Below the pieces are notes generated by a model. The model worked only from the letters and a program-made list of their open reading frames with translations. It made no database searches and was not told where the DNA came from. 64,000 bases of DNA from an uncultured Bacilli bacterium (lineage in GTDB: Bacteria > Bacillota_I > Bacilli_A > RF39 > UBA660), in the NCBI GenBank assembly GCA_947629395.1, contig CANRDQ010000001.1, forward strand, positions 1 through 64,000, given 5' to 3'. Positions 34,119 through 64,000 of the stretch are shown piece by piece; position 1 is the stretch's first letter; every line of letters starts with the position of its first letter. The position numbers were made by a program, and so were the translations under genes.

Positions 34119-34206
34119 TGGTGCTCGTAATCGGACTTGAACCGATACTTTCGTAAGAAAAATAGATTTTGAGTCTATCGTGTCTACCAATTCCACCATA
34201 CGAGCA
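34119..34206 (-). tRNA. tRNA-Leu(CAA)
   Basis: An 88-base class II tRNA on the minus strand. The acceptor stem begins TGCTCGTA and closes with TACGAGCA plus an encoded CCA. The D arm contains GGTAGACACG. The anticodon stem ATAGA/TCTAT holds the loop CTCAAAA, giving anticodon CAA, which reads UUG leucine. A long variable arm with a TTACGAAAGTA hairpin and the T loop GGTTCAAGTCC complete the fold. Confidence 0.95.
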
Positions 34207-62128: not shown

Positions 62129-62160
62129 AAAAAGCTACTAATTTTTTGTAGTAGCTTTGA
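62129..62160 (-). terminator. Terminator of PRTase/SLOG operon
   Basis: On the minus strand AAAGCTACTA pairs with TAGTAGCTTT, followed by T residues. The ascending arm encodes the last codons of the SLOG gene. Confidence 0.8.
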
Positions 62161-62669: not shown

Positions 62670-63368
62670 TTATTTTCTTCCTTTCTTTAAAACTTTAATA
62701 ACTAAATCATCATTGTTAGTGTAATTTATTTTTTCTGGTAAATCTCTCATATAAATATTTTTTCCAGATAATCTTTCTATTTCTTGCCATAAATAAAGTG
62801 ATCTATTTATACAACCTTCGGAAAAATATTTTTCATATTCTTTAGGAATAGAAGCTCTTTCATTAGGGTTACCAAAAGGTAGAAAGTAAGGAGCTTTTAC
62901 AATTTCTTGATTTTTAATAGTAGATATTCCAGATTGAGCAATTCCAAAGTAAAAATCTCTTTCACATATTTGATCTATAACATCACTATCTAGTAAATAG
63001 CCACATTTTAAACCTAAAGGTAAAGTTTTATTAAAATATAGATATCCCGAAATGGTAGAAATACAACTTCTTATACCTATAACTTGAATATTATTATTTT
63101 TAAATTTTTCAATAATTGTTTTTAAAACGGAACCACTAAAGACAACGTCATCCGCTAAAACAATATCAGAAATATTATTTTTAATTAATAAGTCAGAAAT
63201 AATTTTAATTTGTTTATCAACACTTTCTAAATCATTAATATTATTCCTAGCTACTAAATTATTTGATTTATCAAGTCGGGTACAATCAAGAAATATAATA
63301 TTTTTCTGATCTTCAGTTAAATAAATTTTATCTAAAGATACAATGGGGATACCTCCCACATACATCAT
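62670..63368 (-). CDS. Phosphoribosyltransferase-like protein
   Basis: About 230 residues. DIVLADDVVFSGSVLKTII is a type I PRTase PRPP-binding loop in variant form, preceded by strands KNIIFLDCTRL. The specific base substrate is unknown. The annotated ATG lies inside the upstream reading frame and lacks a clear ribosome binding site, whereas GGGAGG stands seven bases before an ATT codon within it. Removing one base near 63355 would fuse it with the upstream gene through DVCGGIPIVSLDK, so this may be one 310-residue protein. Confidence 0.7.
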   Translation of the reverse strand: MMYVGGIPIVSLDKIYLTEDQKNIIFLDCTRLDKSNNLVARNNINDLESVDKQIKIISDLLIKNNISDIVLADDVVFSGSVLKTIIEKFKNNNIQVIGIRSCISTISGYLYFNKTLPLGLKCGYLLDSDVIDQICERDFYFGIAQSGISTIKNQEIVKAPYFLPFGNPNERASIPKEYEKYFSEGCINRSLYLWQEIERLSGKNIYMRDLPEKINYTNNDDLVIKVLKKGRK

Positions 63369-63597
63369 TGATAGAATAGTTTATACTTTCTAACATTTCT
63401 TCTTCACTTAAAATAGATACTTTTCCTTCAAAAATTTTATTAACATCTTTCTTAAAATCTAGTCTTAAATCTTCTATTAACTTTTTATTTGGTATTATTA
63501 AACCATTATTAGTGTAACTAAAATCTAAGGCATTACATCCCTTTAATATTCTTTCTATATCATTACTAAATACAATACTATCTTTAATTATTTTCAT
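63328..63597 (-). CDS. Small protein or N-terminal part of a split PRTase
   Basis: 89 residues from the ATG behind AAGGATGAT. No domain recognised; it is charged and helical and ends NDVCGRYPHCIFR, which after NDVCG reads like out-of-frame sequence of the next gene. A one-base excess in GTGGGAGG would explain it. It is the first gene after the histidine-rich leader and attenuator. Confidence 0.6.
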   Translation of the reverse strand: MKIIKDSIVFSNDIERILKGCNALDFSYTNNGLIIPNKKLIEDLRLDFKKDVNKIFEGKVSILSEEEMLESINYSINDVCGRYPHCIFR

Positions 63598-63649: not shown

Positions 63650-63682
63650 AAAATAAAAAACTATACAGAATTACCTGTATAG
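63650..63682 (-). terminator. Attenuator terminator before PRTase operon
   Basis: On the minus strand CTATACAG pairs with CTGTATAG around GTAATT, followed by TTTTTTATTTT. It lies between the leader peptide and the first structural gene. Confidence 0.85.
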
Positions 63683-63730
63683 TTTATCTATAAAATACAG
63701 GCAACAAGCACCACAAATAGCACTTGTGCC
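63674..63730 (-). promoter_or_regulatory. Antiterminator and alternative hairpins of leader
   Basis: On the minus strand CCTGTAT (63701-63695) can pair with ATACAGG (63680-63674), using half of the terminator stem, reinforced by TATAG/CTATA. Just before it GGCACAAGTGC pairs with GCTTGTTGCC (63730-63700). The CAAGTGC of that hairpin can instead pair with GCACTTG inside the leader coding sequence (63761-63755). These are mutually exclusive folds of the attenuator type. Confidence 0.65.
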
Positions 63731-63739
63731 TACAACGTT

Positions 63740-63808
63740 TTAATGTCGTATTAACAAGTGCAGATTATTATGATGATGTTGTCTAATATTTAAATTCATT
63801 TTTAACAT
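63740..63808 (-). CDS. Histidine-rich leader peptide (22 aa)
   Basis: The encoded peptide is MLKMNLNIR followed by QHHHNNLHLLIRH, with five His among the last 13 residues, three of them consecutive CAT codons. AAAGGAAG precedes the ATG and a good promoter lies upstream. With the overlapping alternative hairpins this looks like a ribosome-mediated attenuator that senses His-tRNA charging. Classical his leaders have such peptides before his genes; here the operon is a PRTase and a SLOG protein. Confidence 0.7.
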   Translation of the reverse strand: MLKMNLNIRQHHHNNLHLLIRH

Positions 63809-63838
63809 AACAATCTTCCTTTCTTCAATATAGCCTGT

Positions 63839-63867
63839 ATTATACTATAATTTTAAGAAAAAGTCAA
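63839..63867 (-). promoter_or_regulatory. SigA-type promoter of leader-PRTase-SLOG operon
   Basis: On the minus strand TTGACT and TATAAT are 17 bases apart, with a predicted start near 63832, 24 nt before the leader peptide ATG. Confidence 0.8.
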
Positions 63868-63920: not shown

Positions 63921-64000
63921 ATGGAAGATATTAAAGAAAAAGCAAAGTTATTTGCGATTGAGGCTCATATAGGACAAGTAAGAAAAAGTGAAAAAGATAA
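63921..64000 (+). CDS. HD-domain protein, N-terminal fragment (cut by window end)
   Basis: Only about 26 codons are visible: MEDIKEKAKLFAIEAHIGQV then RKSEKDK. The pattern A-x-x-AHxGQxRK is the start of the HD hydrolase domain of RelA/SpoT-type (p)ppGpp enzymes and their small relatives. CGGAGGA precedes the ATG. The rest lies beyond the window, so full length and class are unknown. Confidence 0.65.
   Translation, partial: MEDIKEKAKLFAIEAHIGQVRKSEKD

Follow-up and report, generated by a model that had tools for sequence, protein, structure and literature searches.

Why should a run of histidine codons stand in front of a phosphoribosyltransferase (PRTase) and a SLOG-fold protein? The question is raised by the minus strand near the end of the window, as we call the whole stretch of 64,000 nucleotides analysed here (uncultured Bacilli bacterium, assembly GCA_947629395.1, contig CANRDQ010000001.1, positions 1 to 64,000). 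The original prediction, made from the letters of the window, had seen there a histidine leader peptide and attenuator in front of three genes, namely an unassigned small protein, the PRTase and the SLOG-fold protein, and had suggested a histidine- or His-tRNA-linked system. We found histidine attenuation of this operon to be well supported by sequence comparison. The small protein did not hold up as a separate gene: as judged from the reading frames and their homologues it is the N-terminal part of the PRTase, and both frames belong to a single gene, with a +1 frameshift at a His codon between them. We consider it probable, if far from assured, that histidyl-tRNA gates this one PRTase in two steps, by attenuation and then by a hungry-codon frameshift. 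The frameshift at the His codon is the most novel part of the finding.

For comparison we used 28 loci from a species-level genome collection, which together with the window make up 29 loci. Re-fetches of species within L001-L028 (L029-L033, L037-L044, L046) and partial low-score matches (L034-L036, L045) were left out of the counts; L012/L013 and L014/L016 are near-copies within the 29. The original prediction expected relatives to keep the His codons and alternative hairpins along with the genes, and 27 of the 29 loci do carry a His-run leader, the exceptions being L025 and L028, where no leader is visible by eye. The leaders fall into two classes that diverge in sequence and share one layout of five segments: class 1 comprises 23 loci including the window, class 2 comprises four (L006, L008, L009 and L011; example MNLRIFLNELHHHRRSL). 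At least two consecutive histidines are found in all 23 class-1 leaders and at least three in 18 of them; in class 2 all four leaders, read from the DNA, have at least three. A covariance model of class 1 recovers one of the four class-2 leaders, and this weakly (L009, 33.4 bits, E 0.042), so that the two classes may be distant kin. As to the exceptions, L028 (4414-4686) holds a distant one-frame PRTase-SLOG pair directly behind a YerC/YecD-TrpR-like gene ending in RMHHHA, possibly a third way of tying the pair to histidine. L025 (G008:C8:43703-44393) is an in-frame version with an interruption of the PRTase some 40 codons into its core; this is a broken gene or an assembly error, and L025 is a weak witness.

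In the window the 22-aa frame with three CAT codons in a row and two more His codons is present as described, with a ribosome-binding site before it, and the canonical intrinsic terminator lies between the leader and the first gene (Table 1). Terminator-like sites number five in 4 kb against 0.9 expected. In an Rfam scan of the window, T-box included, the only match at gathering score was a tRNA at 34122-34205, and a T-box or other known RNA was therefore rejected as an explanation. The predicted mutually exclusive hairpins, one of them pairing with the leader coding sequence, can be resolved into the helices 1:2, 2:3, 3:4 and 4:5 formed by five segments. We compared the duplex energy of the partners within each sequence with that of shuffled partners, using the 23 class-1 sequences with their relatedness left in and 2000 shuffles. 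Three of the four helices pass, with none of the 2000 shuffles as good: the mean is -16.2 kcal/mol for 2:3 (shuffled -14.4), -6.3 for 3:4 (-5.0) and -14.2 for 4:5 (-11.1). Helix 1:2 is nearly invariant and hence uninformative (-18.5 against -18.6), and the control pairings 1:3 and 2:4 gave no signal in these 23 sequences. The layout recurs in class 2, where each of the four His runs ends six bases 5' of segment 1.

Table 1. Positions of the leader, switch, frameshift and coding features in the window.
Feature	Position	Strand	Remarks
Sigma-70-type promoter TTGACT-17-TATAAT	63839..63867	-	11/12 consensus matches
22-aa His leader peptide MLKMNLNIRQHHHNNLHLLIRH*	63740..63808	-	Shine-Dalgarno AAAGGAAG 5' of ATG
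Control codons CAT CAT CAT (CATCATCAT)	63770..63778	-	Leader reading; 2 further His codons in leader
Segment 1	63745..63761	-	Inside leader just 3' of His run; partner: segment 2
Segment 2	63720..63736	-	3' of leader stop codon; partner: 1 or 3
Segment 3	63695..63711	-	Partner: 2, or its end CCTGTAT with segment 4 (antiterminator)
Intrinsic terminator (segments 4:5)	63658..63685	-	12 pairs, then T-run; -12.8 kcal/mol
Frame-0 open reading frame, N-terminal part of PRTase	63328..63597	-	Ends ...GRYPHCIFR* without shift; 74 homologues, the window's own included
Internal Shine-Dalgarno-like GGGAGG	63352..63357	-	3 nt 5' of slippery codon
Shift site TAT CCC CAT	63343..63351	-	Slippery CCCC 63348-63345; CAT in A site; +1 frame resumes at ATT 63344
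+1-frame part, PRTase core and C-terminal part	62670..63344	-	PRPP loop DDVVFSG
Trans-frame product, 307 aa without Met (308 aa full)	62670..63597	-	Read with CCCC=P; predicted single type I PRTase fold
SLOG / LDcluster4 protein, 176 aa	62138..62668	-	Starts 1 nt after PRTase stop
Terminator-like site overlapping SLOG end	62131..62158	-	Terminator scan

From the parity of the segments we infer the direction of the switch. A ribosome stalled at CAT-CAT-CAT would leave segment 1 free to pair with segment 2, so that 3 would pair with 4, no terminator would form and transcription would read through. If there is no stall, the ribosome would cover segment 1, segment 2 would pair with 3 and the terminator 4:5 would form. 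Some observations limit the case. In both classes 3:4 is weaker than 4:5 (the 3:4 hairpin of the window has -6.3 kcal/mol) and would therefore have to act kinetically. The promoter had been called good; it matches the consensus closely and is the top one of 19 promoter-like sites in the region, but shuffled sequences contain 27.6 such sites, and a consensus match alone is weak. The run CATCATCAT is likewise not rare, with 11 occurrences in the window against 0.8 expected, and says little alone; the case for the leader therefore rests on its conservation.

Which other genes share this leader? The class-1 covariance model gave a match with E ≤0.001 in 29 of the 365 genomes of the order, Arg-run versions included. 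The genes behind the leader were inspected in 27 of these loci and named by eye, with one or two of each kind tested against families. Nine are hisS, two are M20 peptidase genes, four are an unassigned open reading frame (ORF) with an M20-like ORF, two are hisG (above cut-off of TIGR00070), four are an unassigned ORF of about 490 aa and four are M20 genes behind Arg-run versions; two were not parsed. A separate hisS also lies behind a leader in the genomes of L003, L004 and L010, bringing the parsed hisS loci to 12. In the genome of L002 the leader stands before a gene cut by the contig end, for which histidine racemases are the closest families (60 bits, cut-off 400). At L113 (reverse strand) a DapF-like gene closest to histidine racemase models, contig-cut and under the curated cut-offs, was observed behind a His leader; its product may turn D-His into L-His. 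The ORF of about 490 aa (L125, L126, L127, L143) had no NCBIfam match when that of L125 was tested.

The suggestion of a His-tRNA-linked system fits the position of hisS, which is the next gene after SLOG in nine of the 29 loci, the window not among them (in L020 it is a 117-aa piece, and five loci end just behind SLOG). Eight of these nine genomes have a second, higher-scoring hisS elsewhere; L003 and L010 come from genomes whose leader-linked hisS is the sole one above cut-off. In a quick tree a branch separates all 21 leader-linked hisS genes (12 alone, nine in operons) from the higher-scoring copies; its support in the SH-like approximate likelihood ratio test (SH-aLRT) is 89, or 99 if a further gene, L072, is included. 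The hisS upstream of L025 groups with housekeeping hisS, is identical to the top match of its genome and was left out of the count. The suggestion also fits the lack of hisD, which we found in none of the 28 and 25 genomes searched (0/53); the positive control was found in 13 of 14 genomes and missed in Bacillus subtilis, so that we consider a true absence likely rather than certain. The assemblies are small (0.8 to 2.4 Mb), and the host bacteria look like histidine auxotrophs. The leader looks like a signal of histidine shortage. At L122 and L129 the hisG behind the leader occurs in genomes without detected hisD, as an orphan ATP phosphoribosyltransferase.

Attenuators of this build whose leaders have runs of Arg (MKLFLQNNRRRYR, MNYLIINIRRRGMITLVMR and the like) were found at L107, L108, L109, L110, L139, L140, L141 and L142. 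They precede M20-like peptidase genes, of which that of L108 looks broken. It would seem that one RNA platform has exchanged its control codons between His and Arg. This bears on the idea that the trigger is a defect of tRNA-His, by cleavage or loss of queuosine, rather than a lack of the amino acid. tRNAs with Q34 (queuosine at position 34) read the codons of His, Asn and Tyr, and leader runs such as HHHNN, HHNS, HHYN and HHHYN, together with the TAT-CCC-CAT of the shift site, would suit such a trigger. Class 2 reads HHHRR or HHHNK and L014 and L016 read HHHMH, however, and with Arg runs before M20 genes the control codons track an amino acid; hisG and the racemase-like gene behind the leader also point away from a tRNA defect, which we regard as improbable. 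A weak match of the leader model (MKNYVGKKIMYTTDITLAS) was seen at L111 (643-784, reverse strand) before an ABC ATPase, which by eye looks like an ABC-F protein; this is perhaps an antibiotic-sensing attenuator.

Histidine attenuation of the PRTase/SLOG operon, the central claim of the original prediction, is thus well supported by conservation, by the partner-shuffle test, by the swapping of His and Arg leaders and by the hisS, hisG and racemase-like genes behind the same leader. Enterobacterial hisL is a well-known His leader attenuator. His leader peptides were also predicted on Bacillus hisS* and hisZ by Naville and Gautheret in 2010 (PMC2965389), so that the attenuator is not new in kind. 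The likeness to hisL and to the Bacillus leaders lies in a short ORF with consecutive His codons and an attenuator ending in an intrinsic terminator, and as in Bacillus the leader sits on hisS, here in the 12 parsed loci. The Bacillus leaders differ from the present system, which controls a PRTase-SLOG operon, has five segments with the His run just 5' of segment 1, occurs in two leader classes and in Arg-run versions, and adds a further step within the coding region that presumably depends on His.

This second step concerns the first gene of the operon. The N-terminal part and the rest of the PRTase lie in different frames in 24 of the 29 loci (split loci). CCCC stands at the junction in all 24, with frame 0 reading CCC-CAT, and all 74 frame-0 homologues have P-H near their end. 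The A-site codon is the sense codon CAT in all 24, not a stop; the frame-0 stop follows as the sixth codon after CCC in 23 of the 24 and as the twelfth in L005. The His leader is present in all 24 split loci as compared with three of the five in-frame loci. The joined product aligns with one-frame homologues, and for it AlphaFold2 gave a predicted local distance difference test (pLDDT) value of 94.5 and a predicted TM-score of 0.90, with the PRTase fold spanning the junction at P83. Among the best 120 listed of 600 PRTase homologues, 13 carry the N-terminal part in one frame, reading ...YPIVSLDK or similar, and 107 have no N-terminal part and start near or inside the core. Could the halves then simply be two genes with overlapping ends, or the result of assembly errors? 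Shortly before the core, the PRTase frame of the window does contain ATG codons, and predicted proteins start there. Six of the 24 split loci, in contrast, have no ATG, GTG or TTG in that frame before the core, the candidate starts have no Shine-Dalgarno sequence evident by eye, and the two halves make up one predicted fold; with CCCC in 24 of 24 contigs and P-H in every homologue, this explanation is largely refuted and very improbable.

The site resembles that of prfB. The gene for release factor 2 has a programmed +1 frameshift with a Shine-Dalgarno-like element three bases 5' of CUU-U and UGA in the A site. The window likewise has such an element at this distance, UAU directly 5' of the slippery codon, a putative +1 slip in the P site and a slow A-site codon that would be tied to the product's own task. 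It differs from prfB in that CCC-C takes the place of CUU-U, a sense His codon stands in the A site instead of UGA, and the Shine-Dalgarno-like element is not universal. In a scan of 229 positions GGGAGG is the best one in the window, and the element ranks first or second of 229 in eight of the 24 split loci, with a median rank fraction of 0.066. Codon usage was counted in mechanically listed ORFs of at least 200 aa. Among Pro codons CCC is seldom used (7 of 503 in the window, 66 of 1473 in the 28 loci), and in none of its 73 occurrences did a His codon follow. CAT, in contrast, makes up most of the His codons (192 of 212 in the window), so that rarity of the codon does not account for a slow A site.

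Ribosomes on the first gene would reach GGGAGG-UAU-CCC-CAU. With plentiful His-tRNA the CAU would be decoded and translation would end four codons on, leaving a truncated and probably useless N-terminal piece. If charged His-tRNA is scarce, the A site would be empty and the peptidyl-tRNA-Pro would slip from CCC to CCC by +1, giving the full 308-aa PRTase, with SLOG translated from its adjoining start. Starvation frameshifting has mostly been treated as error. In Gallant's experiments on hungry codons, starvation at the A site lets the P-site tRNA slip, and the 2016 review by Atkins and colleagues considers starvation-specific trans-frame proteins conceivable and knows of no examples (both PMC5009743). 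The present case differs in that the site is conserved and the product is a predicted folded enzyme. For CCC-C beside an empty A site a slow +1 slip was measured with E. coli ribosomes and described as relevant to starvation (PMC4519876). In the accessible portions of the open-licence PubMed Central (PMC) literature we found no programmed frameshift described for bacteria that takes place at a sense codon and depends on starvation. With little more than even confidence we propose that the site, CCC-CAU, is a conserved natural hungry-codon sensor at which ribosomes would shift by +1 mainly when charged His-tRNA runs low, and which would form an AND gate with the leader. What would be new is that attenuation and +1 frameshifting, each of a known kind, are joined on one histidine signal.

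That the shift depends on histidine is suggested by the unvarying His codon together with the leader; several facts weigh on the other side. An unchanged Ile codon (C + AT(Y)) after CCCC makes CAT automatic, so that the His could be incidental. The Shine-Dalgarno-like element is absent or weak in L006, L009, L012 and L013. In addition, the native UGG tRNA preferred an unproductive +2 shift on CCC-CG (PMC4519876). The frameshift may thus be real without being a His sensor: CCCC would slip at a fixed rate or on another cue, such as loss of 1-methylguanosine at tRNA position 37 (m1G37), magnesium or S-adenosylmethionine, and the leader alone would sense histidine. Besides the automatic CAT, it favours such a slip that CCC-C is intrinsically shift-prone, more so without m1G37 (PMC4519876), and that the element would raise basal shifting in some loci. 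Any fourth base would serve such a slip, however (T, A or G, giving TAT, AAT or GAT), as would a stop codon, the latter described for CCC-UGA sites (PMC5009743); neither is seen in any of the 74 homologues or 24 loci. As no other fourth base or stop is seen, CAU is common and every split locus has a His leader, we favour the His-sensing site and regard a slip blind to histidine as rather unlikely. We also looked for reuse of the cassette: searched in 21 genomes, TAYCCCCATYGT matches at 26 places, nine of them outside the PRTase gene, and none of the nine resembles a +1 ORF overlap; by its own letters the pattern misses four of 21 PRTase sites (L001, L005, L011, L021).

What do the products do? 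The original prediction of a PRTase and a SLOG-fold protein behind the leader agrees with the predicted fold of the former and with the match of the latter to PF18306 (95.6 bits, cut-off 26.3). The two Asp of the loop binding phosphoribosyl pyrophosphate (PRPP), DDVVFSG, are invariant in 35 sequences. For the Pfam family PRTase-CE (PF24390) the ORF of the window is just under the cut-off (25.2 bits against 27); PF24390.2 is annotated on the protein of the window and on part of the homologues, and PRTase-CE as a term had no match in the open-licence PMC literature. Compared with type I PRTases (HGXPRT, OPRT, APRT) the joined product is 14% identical to the chain compared and the structural score is modest; folds missing from the VIA-align list carry no evidential weight. 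Known SLOG LDcluster4 proteins include the molybdenum cofactor carrier protein (2iz5, 1rcu), and the SLOG protein of the window matches 2iz5 (phmmer E 4.6e-10) and stays below the cut-off of TIGR00725 (73.4 against 106.9 bits). It is distinguished from them by its pairing with this PRTase, which it adjoins in 29 of 29 loci. A single-sequence AlphaFold2 model of the SLOG fold was useless (pLDDT 37.6) and was rejected. An ATG overlaps the PRTase stop by four bases in 19 of the 29 loci (L025 left out), and SLOG translation may therefore be coupled to the frameshift. The terminator-like site at the SLOG end is likely the end of the operon.

From the other genes behind the leader we lean towards a role of PRTase-SLOG in coping with a shortage of histidine or His-tRNA. 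Tentatively, the pair could instead be a stress or anti-phage effector that is released on loss of His-tRNA and depletes nucleotides or PRPP. Near-full matches of the PRTase are patchy, with 5/385, 3/243, 3/243 and 4/243 genomes sampled (centres included; the second and third samples share genomes, and the fourth count includes the interrupted G008 gene), and because of this spread an effector stays in play. Double gating would fit a harmful product, and there are weak PADLOC matches (PRTase_III-A, E 0.12; ThsA STALD, E 0.0014). The leader-linked genes look metabolic, however (hisS, hisG, the racemase-like gene, peptidases). A search for a mobile origin gave no match among 50,697 phage and 72,556 plasmid records, and eight pattern matches in viral contigs included no relative; overall we think an effector unlikely, and histidine shortage remains the role that we prefer.

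Behind the SLOG terminator the window encodes a 544-aa surface protein with a SpaA domain (PF17802; 60384-62018, minus strand), of which no relative was found in the stretches retrieved for the other 28 loci. On the plus strand a divergent ORF starts at 63921-64000 (MEDIKEKAKLFAIEAHIGQVRKSEKD) and is cut by the end of the window; by eye it looks like an HD-domain phosphohydrolase.

If the two-step gate is true, the logic of prfB would have moved from a release factor to an aminoacyl-tRNA, and the same signal would be read both in transcription and in translation. This would be a new class of amino-acid sensor, with two sensors of one tRNA stacked upon each other, and the locus is a concrete, conserved candidate for a starvation-triggered trans-frame protein. 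If the frameshift is true, many records that predict two genes here would need correction. In addition, the results point to a regulon of histidine shortage in gut Bacilli with small assemblies, comprising hisS, hisG without hisD, the racemase-like gene and peptidases, and within it to the enzyme pair of PRTase and SLOG.
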